Shown here: positions 28,749 through 64,000 of the stretch, piece by piece
How positions within the stretch are numbered: position 1 is the first letter of the stretch
Layout: every line of letters starts with the position of its first letter
Assembly (NCBI RefSeq): GCF_017873555.1
Contig: NZ_JAGGKE010000002.1
Coordinates: 1-64,000 of the forward strand
Length of the DNA: 64,000 nucleotides
Source of the DNA: Halorubrum trapanicum
Lineage (GTDB): Archaea; Halobacteriota; Halobacteria; Halobacteriales; Haloferacaceae
Direction of reading: 5' to 3'
Notes under the pieces: generated by a model
Database searches by the model: none
Seen by the model: only the letters and a program-made list of their open reading frames with translations
What the model was told of the DNA's origin: nothing
Program-made: the position numbers and the translations under genes

Positions 28749-28767
28749 TAAGCGACGGGTCGAGGCA

Positions 28768-29066
28768 GTGGCGCGCGCCGACGAACGCCCGAAGGGCGTG
28801 AGTCGCACGCGCGAGGGAGTCGGCCGACCGCAGGGAGGCCGACGAGGCTGGGGAGGCGTGAGGTGCGGTTGTTGTGCGGGGCGGGACTCAAAGGGGCAGC
28901 CGGGAGGCGGGCGCAGGCGTTCACGAGAGCGGAGCTCTCGTGAGCCAATCAGAACGCGAAGCGTTCTGATGACGACGAAAGCACCGCAACGAGTGAGCGG
29001 AGCGAACGAGTAAGGAGCGCAGCGAGCGTGCGCCCGCCTCCCGGCTGGGGCTTTGGCGGTGTTCGT
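28768..29066 (+). ncRNA. Unrecognised structured element, copy A
   Basis: About 300 bp without a coding frame. Order: an outer stem GCGCGCGC/GCACGCGC (28771-28778 with 28805-28812) around a hairpin CGCCCGAAGGGCG; hairpin TCGGCC/GGCCGA (28820-28842); conserved block GAGGCTGGGGAGGCGTGAGG; conserved block GGGACTCAAAGGGGCAG; a perfect 19-bp stem (28897-28915 with 29029-29047) enclosing two long hairpins (CACGAGAGC/GCTCTCGTG and ATCAGAACGC/GCGTTCTGAT) and the motif GACGAAAGCAC; and the tail CTGGGGCTTTGG. Copies B and C keep the blocks but replace every helix with a different, still pairing sequence. That is strong evidence of a selected structure. I do not recognise the family. Confidence 0.7.
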
Positions 29067-29155
29067 CGTCGATCCGCGGTCAACTATTTATAAGCGAGCG
29101 GCTTGGGCTTTGGCGGTGTTCGCCGTCGATCCACGGGTAACTATTTATAAGCGGT
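29048..29155 (+). repeat. 57-bp tandem repeat carrying the element tail and a TATA box
   Basis: The segment GGGCTTTGGCGGTGTTCG, then CGTCGATCC and AACTATTTATAAGCG, occurs at 29048-29104 and again at 29105-29155, with about five differences. The first part is the conserved 3' tail of the structured element; the last part is a TATA box (29085-29093 and 29142-29150) like the one in front of the element. The second unit ends at the stop of the convergent KAS III-like gene. Confidence 0.85.
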
Positions 29156-41331: not shown

Positions 41332-42534
41332 ATGAAGGCGATCAAGGACAGCGTCCACGGCCACGTCCGGCTCGGCGACCTCGCCGTCGAACTGGTCGAC
41401 ACGCCGGCGTTCCAGCGGCTGCGACACATCAAACAGCTGTCCACGGTCCGGCTCGTCTACCCCTCCGCGAACCACACGCGGTTCGAACACAGCCTCGGCG
41501 TCTACCACCTCGCGCGCAGCGCGATCGAGGGACTCGGCGTCGACGAGGACACGGCGGCGCACGTCCGCGCCGCGGCGATGCTCCACGACGCCGGTCACGG
41601 CCCGTACGGCCACCAGACCGAGGGGATCATCCGGCGCGCGACCGGGCGCGACCACGACGACGTGGAGTGGCTGCTCACCGACGCGGACCGCGGGGTCTGT
41701 CAGGTCCTCGAACGCAACGGGCTCGACCCCGAGCGCGTCGCCGCCCTGATCGACGGCGAGGGGGCCTTGGGACCGCTCGTCTCGGGGGAGCTGGACGTGG
41801 ACCGCATGGACTACCTCGTGCGCGACGCCCACCACACCGGCGTCCCGTACGGCACCGTCGACACCGGCCGGCTCGTCACCGAGCTCCGGCTCGTCGGCGG
41901 CGACGGCGCGGGCGGGGCCGCCGACCTCGTCCTCGACGAGGGGAACGTCGCCACCGCCGAGAGCCTGCTCGTCGCGCGCTCGCTGATGAACGCCGTCGTC
42001 TACCGGCACCACGTCTCCCGGGTCGCGGGCGCGATGCTGGAGCGCGCCTGCGAGCGGTACCTCGACCGCACGGAGACCGACGTCGAGGCGTTCCGCCGGA
42101 TGGCGGACCACGACCTCCTCGTCGAGCTGCGCGACCGCGTCCCGGCGCTCGGCGAGCGCATCGAGCGCCGCGACCTCTACAAGCGGGCGGTCTGGGCCGA
42201 GCTCGACGAGGTGCCGACCGGAACGGTCGACGCCGGGCGCGCGGAGGAGCGCGCCGCCGAACGCGAGATCGCGGAGACCGTCGGTATCGACCGCGACGCG
42301 GTCCTCGTCGACATTCCCTCGCGCCCGGCGCTGAAGGAGTCCGGCTCGGCCGTCGTCGTCGACGGCGTCCCGCAGCGGCTGGAGGACGCCTCGGAGCTGG
42401 TGGCCGGACTCCGCGCCGCCGAGCGCCGCCGCTGGACGCTCGGCGTCTACTGTCCCGCCGAGCACGTCGACGCCGTCGCGACCGCCGCGCGAGATGTGCT
42501 GGGACTGCGCGCGACGGGGCGACCGTCGGCCTGA
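41332..42534 (+). CDS. HD-domain phosphohydrolase, paralogue 1
   Basis: 400 residues. The HD metal-binding motif is present: H in RFEHSLGVYHLA, HD in AAMLHDAGHGPYGHQ and a later D in SGELDVDRMDYLVRDAHHTG, the same order as in SAMHD1/dGTPase-like proteins. The N-terminal part begins MKAIKDSVHGHVRLGDLAVE. dNTP or nucleotide hydrolysis is expected from the family but not proven. It is about as long as and clearly homologous to the gene at 43136-44428, with a divergent universal stress gene between them. Confidence 0.9.
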   Translation: MKAIKDSVHGHVRLGDLAVELVDTPAFQRLRHIKQLSTVRLVYPSANHTRFEHSLGVYHLARSAIEGLGVDEDTAAHVRAAAMLHDAGHGPYGHQTEGIIRRATGRDHDDVEWLLTDADRGVCQVLERNGLDPERVAALIDGEGALGPLVSGELDVDRMDYLVRDAHHTGVPYGTVDTGRLVTELRLVGGDGAGGAADLVLDEGNVATAESLLVARSLMNAVVYRHHVSRVAGAMLERACERYLDRTETDVEAFRRMADHDLLVELRDRVPALGERIERRDLYKRAVWAELDEVPTGTVDAGRAEERAAEREIAETVGIDRDAVLVDIPSRPALKESGSAVVVDGVPQRLEDASELVAGLRAAERRRWTLGVYCPAEHVDAVATAARDVLGLRATGRPSA

Positions 42535-43135: not shown

Positions 43136-44428
43136 ATGATCACGGTCAAGGACACCGTCCACGACCACATCGAAATAGACGGCGTCGCCGCCGACCTCGT
43201 CGACACGCCCGCCGTCCAGCGGCTCCGCCACGTCAAGCAGCTCGGGACGGTCCAGCTGGTCTACCCCTCCGCGAACCACACGCGGTTCGAGCACAGCCTC
43301 GGCGTCTACCACCTCGCGAGCCGCGCGCTCGATCACCTCGGGATCGAGGGGAAACGCGCCGACCGCATCGAGGCGGCCGCCATGCTCCACGACGTCGGGC
43401 ACGGCCCGTTCAGCCACAACCTCGAGTCGCTCACCCACCGCCGGACCGGGAAGTACCACGACGACGTCGGCGAGCTGCTGGAGACCGGCGCGGTCGGCGA
43501 CGTGTTACGGGACCACGACCTCGACCCGGACCGGATCGCCGAGATCGTCGCCGGCGAGGGACCGTACGCCGGGCTGGTCTCGGGGGAGCTGGACGTCGAC
43601 CGCATGGACTACCTCGTGCGCGACGCCTACCACACCGGCGTCCCGTACGGCACCATCGACACCGAGCGGTTCGTCCGCGAGCTGACGTTCGTGGAGCGTG
43701 GCGGGGTCGCGGACGGCGACGGTGCGGATCGTGACGGTTCGGACCGCGACGGGACCGGCCGTGACGGCCCGGAACTCGTCTTAGACGAGGGGAACGTTCA
43801 GACCGCCGAGAGCCTGCTCCTCGCCCGAGCGCTGATGAACCCGGTCGTCTACACCCACCACGTGGCGCGCATTTCGAAGGCGATGCTGCGGCGGGCCGCG
43901 AGCGACCTGCTCGACGCGACCGCGACGACCGCGGCCGAACTACGGCGGATGGACGACCACGACTTCCTCGCCGCGGTCCGCGACTGCCGGGAGACGGCCG
44001 AACTCTCCCGGCGGTACGACGAGCGCGACCTCTACAAGCTGGCGGTGTGGGCCGAGTACGACGACGTCCCCGACCGGGTCCACGAGGCGGACCACGCCGC
44101 GGAGACGGCGCTCGAACGCGAGATAGCCGCGGAGGCTGGCGTCGCGCGCGACCACGTGATCCTCGACGTGCCGCCCGAGCCGACGATGCGCGAGTCGACC
44201 GCGCGCGTCACCGTCAACGGTGATATCAGGCGCCTGGAGCGACAGTCGCCGCTCGTCTCGGCGCTCCGGACCGCCCAGCGGGACCAGTGGCGCCTCGGCG
44301 TGTACGCCCCGGCCCCCGCCACCGACCGCGTCGGCCGAGCGGCCGCGGACGTGCTCGGTCTCGACCCCGACGGCCTCGTGACCGAGGTGCGCGGCGCGAT
44401 GCCGACGACGCTCGACGAGTTCGAGTAG
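43136..44428 (+). CDS. HD-domain phosphohydrolase, paralogue 2
   Basis: 430 residues beginning MITVKDTVHDHIEIDGVAAD. HD motif residues: RFEHSLGVYHLAS, AAMLHDVGHGPFSHN, and the later SGELDVDRMDYLVRDAYHTG identical to paralogue 1. It differs by an Asp/Gly-rich insertion at about residues 195-215 (GVADGDGADRDGSDRDGTGR). A CTTTTATC element at 43106-43113 places the transcript start at the ATG (leaderless). The longer frame upstream runs through the divergent Usp gene and is not coding. Confidence 0.9.
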   Translation: MITVKDTVHDHIEIDGVAADLVDTPAVQRLRHVKQLGTVQLVYPSANHTRFEHSLGVYHLASRALDHLGIEGKRADRIEAAAMLHDVGHGPFSHNLESLTHRRTGKYHDDVGELLETGAVGDVLRDHDLDPDRIAEIVAGEGPYAGLVSGELDVDRMDYLVRDAYHTGVPYGTIDTERFVRELTFVERGGVADGDGADRDGSDRDGTGRDGPELVLDEGNVQTAESLLLARALMNPVVYTHHVARISKAMLRRAASDLLDATATTAAELRRMDDHDFLAAVRDCRETAELSRRYDERDLYKLAVWAEYDDVPDRVHEADHAAETALEREIAAEAGVARDHVILDVPPEPTMRESTARVTVNGDIRRLERQSPLVSALRTAQRDQWRLGVYAPAPATDRVGRAAADVLGLDPDGLVTEVRGAMPTTLDEFE

Positions 44429-52234: not shown

Positions 52235-53056
52235 TCAGATCTCGCGGCAGTTCGGGCAGACGGCCTGCCCGTTAGCGGTGACGAGGTCGGGAACGAGCGC
52301 GCCGCAGTTCTCGCAGACGCCCTGCGTCGAGGCCCCGCTCGGCGCTCCCGCAATCGGGTCGGTACCGCCGTCCGTCCCCGCGGTTTCGTCCCGGGACGCG
52401 GCCGCTGTGCGGTCCGCCGTCGACCCCGGACCGATCGTGGTCCCGGCGCCGCGTTCGGCGTCGGAGTCCGCGGCGGCGGCCGAGAGCACCGTCCCGTCCG
52501 GCCGCGTCTCGCCGGTCGCGGTCTCGTCGCCGAACCCGTCGGTCCCCGTGCCCGTCCGCGGAGCGCCGGCGGCGAGCACGTCGCCGTCCGTGACGACGCC
52601 GACCGCCTCACCGTCGTCGACGGCGACGACCCGGTCGGTCCCTTCCGCGATGAGTCGCTCTTCGACCGCCGACAGGGAGTCGTCCGGAGACACCGTCGGT
52701 AGCGGCGGACCCATCGCGTCGCCGACGGTGCGTTCGTCGGCTGCGCGGTCGTCGGTGCTGCGTTCGTCGGCTGCGCGGTCGTCGGTGCTACGTTCGTCGG
52801 CGGCGCGGTCGTCGGCGGTACGTTCGTCGCCCTCCGTTCCCGCCCCGGACTCGTCGGCGTCTCCGGTCATGTCCAACAGCGCGTCGAGCGCGTCGCGGGA
52901 CTCCAAACGGCCGACCGGTTCGCCGCCGCGCACGACGACGAGGCAGTTCGTCTCCTCTTCGACCAACAAGGCGGCCGCGTCCGAGAGCGAGTCCGACTCG
53001 CTGGCGCCGAGGAACTCGCGGTGCATCACGTCACGAACCGTGGTGTCTGTTCGCAT
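52235..53056 (-). CDS. CBS-pair protein with C-terminal zinc ribbon
   Basis: 273 residues. CBS 1 (about 5-65): TTVRDVMHREFLGASESDSL. CBS 2 (about 108-165): TVGDAMGPPLPTVSPDDSLS, with VVAVDDGEAVGVVTDGDVLA. The C-terminal zinc ribbon is VCENCGALV...AVCPNCREI (four cysteines). CBS pairs bind adenine nucleotides; the ribbon suggests binding of another macromolecule. The linker between the CBS motifs is made of 30-bp DNA repeats (see separate entry). Such CBS-ribbon proteins are common in haloarchaea, and their partner is unknown. Confidence 0.85.
   Translation of the reverse strand: MRTDTTVRDVMHREFLGASESDSLSDAAALLVEEETNCLVVVRGGEPVGRLESRDALDALLDMTGDADESGAGTEGDERTADDRAADERSTDDRAADERSTDDRAADERTVGDAMGPPLPTVSPDDSLSAVEERLIAEGTDRVVAVDDGEAVGVVTDGDVLAAGAPRTGTGTDGFGDETATGETRPDGTVLSAAAADSDAERGAGTTIGPGSTADRTAAASRDETAGTDGGTDPIAGAPSGASTQGVCENCGALVPDLVTANGQAVCPNCREI
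52729..52829 (-). repeat. 30-bp tandem repeat inside the CBS gene
   Basis: The unit encodes DDRAADERST and is repeated about 3.4 times (52729-52829); the first two units differ at a single base. It sits in the linker between the two CBS motifs, so copy-number change would alter linker length by 10 residues per unit without frameshift. Confidence 0.88.
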
Positions 53057-54002: not shown

Positions 54003-54232
54003 TCTCGGTGGGCTGTCGCGGTTGGCGGAACTGACGGGAGATCGATGAGGACTGCTTCAGAAACCGCGGCCGCTCGTTTACAAATAGCCGGCTTCGTTGG
54101 ACCTTGTTTACAGGTGTGTTCTCGTTCGAAACGACCGGTCGTTAACACGCGTATATCGGCCGCAGAAGGCTCTACTAGCTTAGAGAGGTGTTCAGAAGGC
54201 TTGCGGGACACGACCGGGATAGTGAAGCTACA

Positions 54233-54242
54233 ATTTATAAAT
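54233..54242 (+). promoter_or_regulatory. TATA box for the 54263 gene
   Basis: AATTTATAAAT lies 26 bp upstream of the ATG at 54263, fitting a leaderless transcript. It lies in an A+T-rich stretch (54.0-54.6 kb) whose composition differs from its neighbours. Bases 54003-54230 hold nothing else that I can support. Confidence 0.65.
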
Positions 54243-54262
54243 TCAGATATCTAACGAAAAAC

Positions 54263-54448
54263 ATGGAGCCGAAAGATATCGTCGCGGCCGGTATCTTGCT
54301 TGTATTCGTCTCCCTTCTTTTGGCTCTGTTAACTAGTGTCTGGATTATTCCGTTAGGCCTGTTTGTATCGTTCGTCGGGCTTCTGCTGTATTTATTTAAG
54401 AGACATCACGAGAGACGGATGGATTCTAAGCGGAATCAGGTCGAATAG
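54263..54448 (+). CDS. Small two-helix membrane protein, low G+C
   Basis: 61 residues: MEPKDIVAAGILLVFVSLLL, ALLTSVWIIPLGLFVSFVGL and LLYLFKRHHERRMDSKRNQV. Two membrane helices are followed by a basic tail. Codon use is much more A+T-rich than the flanking udk and helicase genes, which suggests acquisition. The start is fixed by the well-placed TATA box. Confidence 0.68.
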   Translation: MEPKDIVAAGILLVFVSLLLALLTSVWIIPLGLFVSFVGLLLYLFKRHHERRMDSKRNQVE

Positions 54449-54496
54449 ACCGCTACGAGAACTGTCGGACTTAGCCATTGTGTCACGCAAGGCGTT

Positions 54497-54512
54497 TCTC
54501 ACAGATGTGAGA
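54497..54512. other. Short palindrome after the small membrane gene
   Basis: TCTCACA (54497-54503) and TGTGAGA (54506-54512) form a 7-bp inverted repeat with two bases between. It may be an mRNA end signal or an operator. The remaining bases from 54449 to the structured element at 54620 hold no gene. Confidence 0.35.
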
Positions 54513-54619
54513 GAGGTGTCGACCGACTCCAGTCTGTGGGTTCTCTGTGCTGGCCGGAATTGGGGTAGAACGTGTCTCTCACCGCGGATTCCAACAGGCC
54601 AGATAGCTAATCGCGCATC

Positions 54620-54921
54620 GGCAGTGAACGCCGCCAAAGCCCCAGTCGCGAGGCGGCAGTACGCTCGTTGTCGTTCGAGACGCCGAAGGCGTCTCGTGAT
54701 GACGAAACGGCTTCGTCGTTTCGAACCACGCTCCTCGTCACTCGCTGCGCTCGTTCCTGCGGTGCTTACGTCACCTACTGCCGCCTCGCGACTGCCCCTT
54801 TGAGTCCCGCCCCGCACAGCAGCCGCACCTCACGCCTCCCCAGCCTCGCCGCTCGCTCCGCTCGCGGCGTCCCTCGCGCGTGCTGACTCGCGGCCTGTCG
54901 GCCGCTCGCAGGCACGCGCCA
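54620..54921 (-). ncRNA. Unrecognised structured element, copy B
   Basis: It begins on the minus strand 11 bp after the stop of the helicase gene and has no TATA box of its own that I can see, so it is probably carried on the helicase transcript. The layout equals copy A: outer stem GGCGCGTGCC/GCACGCGC around GCGGCC/GGCCGC; hairpin GCCGC/GCGGC (54848-54868); GAGGCTGGGGAGGCGTGAGG; GGGACTCAAAGGGGCAG; a perfect 19-bp stem (54776-54794 with 54643-54661) with a sequence unlike that in copy A; inside it GACGTAAGCAC and two hairpins (CGAGACGCC/GGCGTCTCG and GAAACGACG/CGTTTC); tail CTGGGGCTTTGGCGG. The similarity to copy A continues about 25 bp beyond the tail. Confidence 0.7.
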
Positions 54922-54931
54922 CCGCGTTCGG

Positions 54932-56314
54932 TCAGCGTCGTCGACTCGCCACGCGCTCCTCGGCGGTCTCTGCGCTGACGAGTTCGTAGAGGGTCGCCCG
55001 GCCGCCGTCCTCCTTCGGCCGGAGCACACGGCCGAGCCGCTGGGTGAACTCGCGCTCGCTGCCCGAACCCGAGAGCAGGACCGCGACGTTCGCGTCGGGC
55101 ACGTCGACGCCCTCGTCGAGGACGTTGGCGGCGACGACCCGCCCGTAGGTGCCGTCGCGGAAGCGTTCGAGGATCTCGCGGCGCTCCGTCGCGCCCGTCT
55201 CGGCGGTGATCGCGGGCAGGAGGAAGCGCTCCGAGAGGCGGTAGACGAGGTCCGTGTGGGCCGTGAACACGATTACGCGGTCGTCGCGGTGCCGGTCGAG
55301 GATTTCGGCCAGCCGGTCGACCTTCCGCTCGGCGTTCATCATGATCTCGCGGGCATCCTGCTTCGCGAGGAGCGCCTCGCGGGCGGCCGGGTCGTTGCCC
55401 GATCGCTTGACCAATTCCTGATAGTCGCTCCCGCTCGTGAACGTGATCCCGGCGTCGCGGACGTACTCGACGAAGGTGCCCTGTTTCTCGTCGTAGCGCT
55501 CGCGCTCCGCGTCGGTCAGCGCCACCTCGATCCGCCGGATGTCGTAGGGCGCGAGGTGGCCGCCCGCGAGGTCGTCCACGTCGAGTGCGTACACGCGGTC
55601 GCCCACGAGGTCGGCGACGACCTCGTGCGCGCCGTCCGGGCGCTCGAAGGTGGCGGTCAGCCCAAGTCGCGCGGGGGCGGCGAGCAGGCGCGCGGCGTCG
55701 CGGTACCCCTCGCCGCCGAGGTGGTGGACCTCGTCGAAGACGACGAACTCGAAGGCGTCGCCGACGCCGTCAGCCTTCAGGTACGCGGAGTGGTACGTCG
55801 ACACCGTGACCGCCTCGCGGCGCTGCTCGCCCCCGCCGAAGCGGCCGATCGGGAGGTCGAACTCGCGCTCCAGCTCGCGCTGCCACTGGTCGAGCAGGTC
55901 CACCGTGGGGACGACGACGAGCGTCGGCACGCCCAGTTCGACCATCGCGCGGATCGCGATCACGGTCTTGCCGGCGCCGGTCGGGAGCTCGATCACCCCG
56001 CGGTCGCCCGCGTCGCGCCACGCGTCGAGCGCCTCGCGCTGGTACTCGCGGAGGTCGTAGTCGGTGACGAGCGCGTCCGGCAGTCCGGCCTCGCTCGCGG
56101 CGCGGTCGCTCGCCGCGAGGACCCGGTCGTCGACGGAGACGCCGGCGACCCGGAGCGCCCGCCGGAGTTCGGCGTAGCGGTGGGCCGGCGCGCGACCGGT
56201 CCCGGTTCGGGGGTCGGTCTCGACGCCGGGCAGCGGCGGCAGCGCGTCGGGCGCGAGGTCGGCGTCCGCGTCGACCCGGATCGTCCCGTCCTCGTAGGTC
56301 AACCGGACGTCCAT
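54932..56314 (-). CDS. XPB/Rad25-type superfamily 2 DNA helicase
   Basis: 460 residues. The N-terminal damage-recognition-like domain (about 1-75) is followed by helicase motifs: YDLREYQREALDAWRDAGDR, Walker A IELPTGAGKTVIAIRAMVEL, DEVHHLGGEGYRDA (DExH box), LGLTATFERPDGA (motif III region), VIVFTAHTDLVYRLSERFLL, and motif VI REFTQRLGRVLRPKEDGGR. A thumb-like insertion lies around residue 270-320. It acts in DNA repair or transcription-linked unwinding; no Bax1-type nuclease gene is adjacent here. The structured element B follows its stop. Confidence 0.92.
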   Translation of the reverse strand: MDVRLTYEDGTIRVDADADLAPDALPPLPGVETDPRTGTGRAPAHRYAELRRALRVAGVSVDDRVLAASDRAASEAGLPDALVTDYDLREYQREALDAWRDAGDRGVIELPTGAGKTVIAIRAMVELGVPTLVVVPTVDLLDQWQRELEREFDLPIGRFGGGEQRREAVTVSTYHSAYLKADGVGDAFEFVVFDEVHHLGGEGYRDAARLLAAPARLGLTATFERPDGAHEVVADLVGDRVYALDVDDLAGGHLAPYDIRRIEVALTDAERERYDEKQGTFVEYVRDAGITFTSGSDYQELVKRSGNDPAAREALLAKQDAREIMMNAERKVDRLAEILDRHRDDRVIVFTAHTDLVYRLSERFLLPAITAETGATERREILERFRDGTYGRVVAANVLDEGVDVPDANVAVLLSGSGSEREFTQRLGRVLRPKEDGGRATLYELVSAETAEERVASRRR

Positions 56315-63644: not shown

Positions 63645-64000
63645 GGGCGCTTCCAAAGCCTCAGCCGCGAGGGCGGCGCACGCTCGCTGCGCGCTTCACT
63701 CGGTCGCTCACTTCGTTTGCTCCCTCGTTCCAGTGCTTACGTCGCCTGCGCCGCCCTCGCGGCAGCGTGGCGCTACGCGCCACGGGCAACCGGCGGCTTT
63801 GCCGCCGGTGACTGCCCCTTTGAGTCCCACCCCGCACAGCGCCTCACGCCTCCCCAGCCTCGTCAGTCGCCCGGAGCAACGCGGAGGGCGACTGACTCCA
63901 GCGAGGGACCTTCGGTCCCTCTGGCAGCCGGCGCGTCGCGCCGGCGACAGTGCGAGAGCGAAGCTCTCGCTTGAAACCGGACGGAGTCCGGTGACAGCGA
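63645..64000 (-). ncRNA. Unrecognised structured element, copy C (may run past the window)
   Basis: Read on the minus strand: several hairpins (63905-63960 region, for example GAGGGACC/GGTCCCTC and CCGGCGCG/CGCGCCGG), the 10-bp hairpin TCAGTCGCCC/GGGCGACTGA (63863-63895), conserved block GAGGCTGGGGAGGCGTGAGG, block GGGACTCAAAGGGGCAG, two extra inserted hairpins (CCGGCGGC/GCCGCCGG and GTGGCGC/GCGCCAC), the 19-bp stem (63747-63765 with 63662-63680, one mismatch), motif GACGTAAGCAC inside it, and the tail CTGAGGCTTTGG. It differs from A and B in the extra hairpins. Similarity stops just beyond the tail. The upstream limit is not visible because the window ends. Confidence 0.65.

Follow-up and report, generated by a model that had tools for sequence, protein, structure and literature searches.

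This locus raises the question of what kind of element lies directly behind the XPB-like helicase gene of this Halorubrum genome, and whether it is mobile. The stretch of DNA analysed, 64,000 nucleotides in all, is referred to as the window.

Copies in the window

An earlier note on this DNA had described two copies of a structured element, of which the second (copy B) was an inverted version of the first (copy A) and started 11 bp past the helicase stop. The layout and the location were confirmed: copy B occupies 54634-54923 on the minus strand directly behind the helicase ORF, the inverted-repeat arms of copies A and B are 78-83% complementary over 68-95 nt, and the fold of copy B lies beyond chance (z = -6.0). 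The distance did not hold, as the measured gap is 8 bp. Both copies are real; a third, copy C at 63649, and the accessory hairpin module common to copies A and B had been missed, and the family is far larger genome-wide. The similarity seen beyond CTGGGGCTTTGG is also real and represents the first unit of a tail of about 57 bp that is typical of the copies. On the minus strand the 5' end of copy B is GGTGGCGCGTGCC at 54923, and the fold terminates with CTGGGGCTTTGG at 54634. The features are listed below, where R1 denotes a covariance model of the 3' domain of the element.

28767..29056, plus strand: copy A (R1 111.7 bits)
29057..29150, plus strand: tail of copy A, two tandem units, each ending in TTTATAAGCG, from the sequence; unit starts at 29045 and 29102
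54590..54633, minus strand: tail unit of copy B, single and degenerate, TTTATAA lost; tail end approximate
54634..54923, minus strand: copy B, whole element from P1 to the end of P3 (R1 match 54633-54848, 116 bits; fold -166.5 kcal/mol, z -6.0)
54876..54919, minus strand: P1, outer stem GCGCGTGC/GCACGCGC and inner hairpin, from the fold; conserved in a 48-copy alignment
54847..54869, minus strand: P2 hairpin CGCCGCGAGCGG..CGGCG, its sequence interchangeable between copies
54828..54848, minus strand: nearly invariant linker CGAGGCTGGGGAGGCGTGAGG, invariant columns in alignments A1 and A2; CGGYTGGGGAGG in other genera
54792..54808, minus strand: 5' strand of the P3 base, GGGACTCAAAGGGGCAG, with the GGG half of the GGG/GGG internal loop; CAAAG/CTTTG against GAAAG/CTTTC between genera
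54634..54804, minus strand: P3 long helix, from covariation
54661..54729, minus strand: accessory hairpin module in the P3 apex, common to copies A and B, from sequence and P3 length
54932..56314, minus strand: XPB-like helicase gene adjoining copy B (ORF), anchor for the comparison of relatives
63649..64000, minus strand: copy C with extra accessory modules, from the sequence; leaves the window (to about 64090, L180)

The region next to copy B is indeed richer in A+T, with a GC content of 0.46 (54170-54470) and 0.50 (54035-54600) against 0.69 for the window. This patch holds a small ORF at 54263-54448 with two likely membrane helices (MEPKDIVAAGILLVF...). Elsewhere in the window a short 15/30-bp tandem array (GTCGTCGGTGCTGCGTTCGTCGGCTGCGCG) was observed at 52718-52829, and the segments 41332-42048 and 43136-43897, lying 1.8 kb apart and 76-81% identical, are probably paralogous neighbouring genes. 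The direct-repeat families of the window mostly resemble coding GC periodicity.

Architecture and conserved fold

The element of about 290 bp consists of P1, P2, the invariant linker CGAGGCTGGGGAGG and the long helix P3, and is followed by the 57-bp tail, which is often tandem. P3 (GGGACTCAAAGGGGC...CTGGGGCTTTGG) pairs CAAAG with CTTTG at its base, followed by a symmetrical GGG/GGG internal loop and a 13-bp stem, and its end is a rod of two-pair steps with conserved GA-type mismatches between the steps. Between genera the P3 base switches from C-G to G-C, that is, from CAAAG/CTTTG to GAAAG/CTTTC. In the cross-genus alignment, which was fitted to the covariance model and includes a few antisense rows, standard pairs occupied 97.3% of the pair cells compared to 71.0% after shuffling, both sides had changed in 31 of 37 pairs, and the covariation score was 0.625 compared to at most 0.085 for slid structures. 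The sequence-only alignment A1 gave a covariation of 0.319 against at most 0.051 for slid structures.

The cells holding G-U numbered 49 and those holding A-C only 9 (the rows are related and the p-value is nominal), and this excess indicates that one strand folds. It is the strand with GGGACTNAAAGGGGC that has kept its fold, in the form of RNA or ssDNA. Its fold is 25 kcal/mol better than that of the reverse strand, and strong hairpins form on both strands. The covarying, strand-specific fold that characterises the structured-RNA class is therefore present in the element. Known RNA families were rejected, since the search of 4227 Rfam families at gathering thresholds, group I/II introns and ribozymes included, gave no match for the window copies; for four loci searched up to E 10, just two unrelated chance matches of E 9 and above were obtained.

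The P3 length is usually 105-117 and reaches 160-173 in a minority of copies; accessory hairpin modules, restricted to a few fixed positions, are likewise carried by a minority of copies, and the P3 apex is inverted in L020, L136, L137 and L158. The shortened copies L275-L279 are internal deletions which retain the 5' end, and a LINE/SINE-like 5' truncation was rejected on this ground. The P2 regions of several own-genome copies (L005, L017, L019, L133) appear as long junk runs of G/C homopolymer, which probably arose as artefacts of the assembly where hairpins are strong. In copies of other genera (L284, L285, L204, L290) P2 repeats the P3 apical motif GCACCRCAG..CGAGGAGCRCAG, which suggests from the sequence that one internal-loop module may be used twice.

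Copy number and distribution

Within the 3.08-Mb genome the 21-base core pattern had 115 matches (55 on the plus and 60 on the minus strand), and the reversed control had 0. R1 gave 142 matches in this genome, some of which are antisense duplicates of the palindromic P3, and the single-contig congener G120 holds the element at about 130 places. The family amounts to approximately 1% of a Halorubrum genome. The element was matched in 161 of 243 genomes and in 57 of 77 genera of the order; a phylum-wide sample gave no match outside the order. The copy number ranged from 0 to over 100, several near-complete haloarchaeal genomes being free of any match, and this range indicates that the element is not essential. 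Other genera hold dozens of copies, with 76 of 81 scored candidates in G026 and 72 of 81 in G038. The sequences of other genera keep the architecture along with the motifs CGGYTGGGGAGG, GGGACTGAAAGGGGC and GGGGCTTTC, hence they are homologous rather than just hairpins rich in GC. Some of these copies are P3-only units (L207, L288, L292), and pairs in opposite orientation occur within about 300 bp (L281, L282, L283, L290), some of them having the 5' region in common with a P3-only unit. Viral spread was rejected, as none of 50,697 phage records matched the element. In the draft assembly of this genome (G000), contigs end in or near a copy at C2:360473, C3:113, C5:76, C6:188816, C9:167, C10:166, C10:127252 and C1:472820; with so many contig ends at copies, the family probably breaks assemblies and complicates assembly work.

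Genomic placement and the helicase site in relatives

The copies are intergenic, with almost no called gene overlapping a copy (automatic gene caller). Among the 93 copies with both neighbours called, 39 lay in convergent, 45 in tandem and 9 in divergent gaps, while the reference for convergent gaps, a small sample of automatic gene calls in the window, was 9 of 50. Convergent gaps and gene 3' ends thus hold an excess of copies, and divergent gaps hold few. Within tandem gaps 23 copies ran along the gene direction and 22 against it; a directional terminator was rejected for want of this strand preference.

The earlier note proposed that the element is mobile, and that its presence at this exact site in all related genomes would speak instead for vertical inheritance. 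The nearest relatives of the window helicase are 95-97% identical and belong to Halorubrum species, and 23 Halorubrum loci (L031-L053) were compared. The site is not occupied throughout: the full-length element in the same orientation was found at 6 of the 23 loci (L032, L033, L034, L037, L042, L053), at a distance of 75 bp from the helicase in five of them and 78 bp in L037. The element is inverted in L041 and partial in L043, L049 and, by eye, L039; in the remaining loci of the 23 it was not seen, a small gene or a short spacer taking its place. A small conserved gene fills the helicase-side gap in L031, L035, L036, L040, L046 and L050, from species without the element there. In the window copy the 75-bp helicase spacer was lost or never present. 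The presence/absence comparison thus yielded occupied and empty sites, but no clean insertion in unbroken flanks; several species share one ancestral helicase site. Old dispersal with vertical persistence fits these data better than current mobility.

Shared sites, empty sites and mosaic bodies

Comparison with G120 revealed that 36 of 65 of its copies occupy the site and orientation of a copy in this genome, and two further copies match deletion derivatives (L275, L278). Four sites from unmatched copies were searched in four congeners; two were empty in some and two were occupied in all. In place of the element, an unrelated spacer of about 25-80 bp lies at the empty sites, and neither clean insertion nor target duplication was seen where empty and occupied sites were compared. 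At shared sites the left junction is kept within about 10 bp in most cases, and the right offsets often differ by multiples of about 57.

The flanks at shared sites are 0.92 identical. The bodies at these sites are no closer than random copies, the identities being 0.79 against 0.80 for P3, 0.61 against 0.60 for P2 and 0.67 against 0.67 for the tail. A faint excess of similar P3s (87% or more) was found at shared sites (6 of 36 against 57 of 1500, p 0.003). Sites followed through five species are mosaics, where P3 is 95% shared while P2 and tail differ. Together these comparisons indicate that sites persist vertically, with segments exchanged between copies and the fold maintained. At one site in two closer species (G044/G110), a pair picked by score and not a random sample, the element is 99.2% identical against 90-95.5% for the flanks; the two differences are both C to T and, read on the fold, both give G-U pairs. 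Such conservation above the flanks could reflect an in-place function.

Tail units and the upstream TTATAA box

The motif CTGGGGCTTTGG recurs downstream of the element in tandem units with a spacing mode of 57 bp (78 cases), TTTATAA is typically present in each unit, and the best-preserved units appear to be those closest to the element. The idea that the number of tail units records past replacements of the element was rejected, since copies with an unchanged tail have equally divergent bodies and the tail array is therefore not a simple replacement count. In many copies, though not all, TTTATAA stands at both flanks. Upstream, 81 of 155 copies have TTATAA at 10-52 nt from the start, with a cluster at 13-25 nt; in shuffles it is almost absent. 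With the TATA spacing of haloarchaea, transcription would begin some 13 nt inside the element, beyond the 5' strand of P1. TTTATAAA was rejected as the element's own promoter, because it is too near the element start to act as an ordinary promoter for the whole fold.

Explanations considered

The explanation favoured here, with slightly more confidence than doubt, is an ancient non-autonomous dispersed element of haloarchaea whose single-stranded form would be recognised by a putative haloarchaeal factor, and whose mobility we infer. One defined strand would fold as a single-stranded nucleic acid, RNA most simply and ssDNA possibly, with P1, P2 and P3 set around nearly invariant junctions. A putative haloarchaeal protein may recognise this folded strand and may once have dispersed the element by placing copies of it at further intergenic sites, with survival mostly at gene 3' ends, as we propose, because the least harm is done there. 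Most copies would thereafter have been inherited in place, and recombination between copies, perhaps gene conversion anchored on the conserved motifs, may swap stems, hairpin modules and tails. Through this swapping of segments the copies within a genus would stay similar and the fold would be preserved, while tail units would be added beside the element and decay outward. Counted against this explanation are the lack of a mobilising protein among those tested (Y1, TnpB), the unrelated spacer at empty sites where no clean insertion or target duplication was seen, and the G044/G110 element, better conserved than its flanks and possibly functional in place. Under a further reading, of low probability, the family would be a mobile RNA found across the haloarchaea: a putative enzyme would copy the protein-free element by way of its folded transcript, in a SINE-like or ribozyme-assisted manner, and the element would home to older copies of itself, with a tail unit left behind at some rounds.

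A tentative alternative, to which a lesser but real weight is given, is a multi-copy noncoding RNA of the host, each locus being transcribed and the RNA acting in trans in an RNP, with the extra copies as dosage or subfunctional variants. The invariant unpaired motifs and the strand-specific fold conserved across an order, the one site where the element exceeds its flanks in conservation, and the TATA-like TTATAA 10-52 nt upstream in 81/155 copies agree with this; yet that box would put the start inside P1 and is missing from about half of the copies, internal deletions occur, and the copy number runs from 0 to over 100 with several near-complete genomes lacking a match. A role at mRNA 3' ends, in terminating or stabilising the transcript as for REP/BIME in the 3' UTRs of E. 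coli, is unlikely: the excess of the element in convergent gaps and at gene 3' ends, its rarity in divergent gaps and the strong hairpins on both strands would suit such a role, but orientation in tandem gaps is unbiased (23 vs 22), the fold is strand-specific and far more elaborate than a terminator requires, and sites are empty in close relatives. A relic of the PATE/REP type from IS200/IS605, moved as ssDNA by a Y1 transposase (TnpA/RAYT), or a solo TnpB omega-RNA, is highly improbable. About 100 copies examined are too short for a transposase and have no terminal inverted repeats, only near-terminal palindromes, which together with the missing coding capacity and the strand-specific, ssDNA-like fold is what such a relic would show. 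However, the Y1 transposase (PF01797) is absent from the high-copy genomes G004, G104, G026 and G038 and present in the zero-copy genomes G010, G014 and G060, and TnpB numbers 0 in G026 (76 copies) and 51 in G010 (0 copies), which makes mobilisation of the IS200/IS605 type unlikely. None of the 13 IS605-type (TnpB/Y1) loci of this genome resembles the element, by nhmmer with the element profile at E<=10 (the positive controls, helicase loci, matched at 1e-18 to 1e-75) or by R1, which gave nothing below 0.3. The IS200/IS605, REP-RAYT and TnpB omega-RNA origins were rejected on these grounds, and a MITE was rejected as the 5' end GGTGGCGCG and the 3' end CTGGGGCTTTGG/tail are not mutual inverted repeats. 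Hardly any weight is left for a motif that organises the chromosome and is polar or evenly spaced in the manner of KOPS or Chi, which the many copies on either strand over the full length of the chromosome might recall; this candidate was rejected because on the G120 chromosome the copies are spaced no differently from random (CV 1.02, p 0.67) and no strand polarity was found (p 0.93).

Haloarchaeal genomes seemingly hold a structured-RNA-like family of very high copy number, for which no annotation was found; no enzyme or function has so far been linked to it, and no protein or known transposase connected to its copies. The element offers a ready system for studying the spread of structured repeats, and their continued likeness, where no transposase can be recognised. 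As the family is order-wide and RNA-like, its expression and binding partner are directly testable in culturable species.

Comparison with known systems

The element shares with structured ncRNAs of Rfam a multi-helix consensus, covariation and invariant unpaired motifs, and differs in that no family matched. No description of it was found in the literature covered by the search, most subscription journals lying outside that coverage, and the element is apparently undescribed so far. Bacterial REP/REPIN with RAYT resemble it as intergenic palindromic repeats in many copies, and REPs are linked to a Y1 transposase. The present element, without a Y1 link, measures 290 bp, whereas REPs measure 20-40 bp and mostly bear a GTAG or CGTC tag (PMC3733652).

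The PATEs (palindrome-associated transposable elements) of Haloquadratum walsbyi have near-terminal palindromes shared with IS605-type transposons (PMC3119063). The likeness lies in haloarchaeal, high-copy, non-coding repeats without terminal inverted repeats and with palindromes near the ends, whose copies are heterogeneous and are targets of small inserted repeats (PMC3119063). The present element differs in having no sequence link to IS605 ends and no co-occurrence with Y1/TnpB, and its conserved multi-domain covarying fold and tandem tail are features not reported for PATEs in the text available (PMC3119063). The SMR-A small mobile repeats of Haloquadratum are about 110 bp long with prominent inverted ends, their mobilisation is enigmatic, and they are reported to target PATE/IS605 palindromes (PMC3119063). 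The P3-only units of other genera (L207, L288, L292) are similar to them, by description and not by sequence (PMC3119063). With the PATE-defining link to IS605 ends absent, no Rfam match and no literature description, the element is called a dispersed non-autonomous repeat of unusually strong RNA-family character. Among published repeats, the PATE/SMR class of Haloquadratum, mobile and free of a transposase, comes closest to it (PMC3119063).
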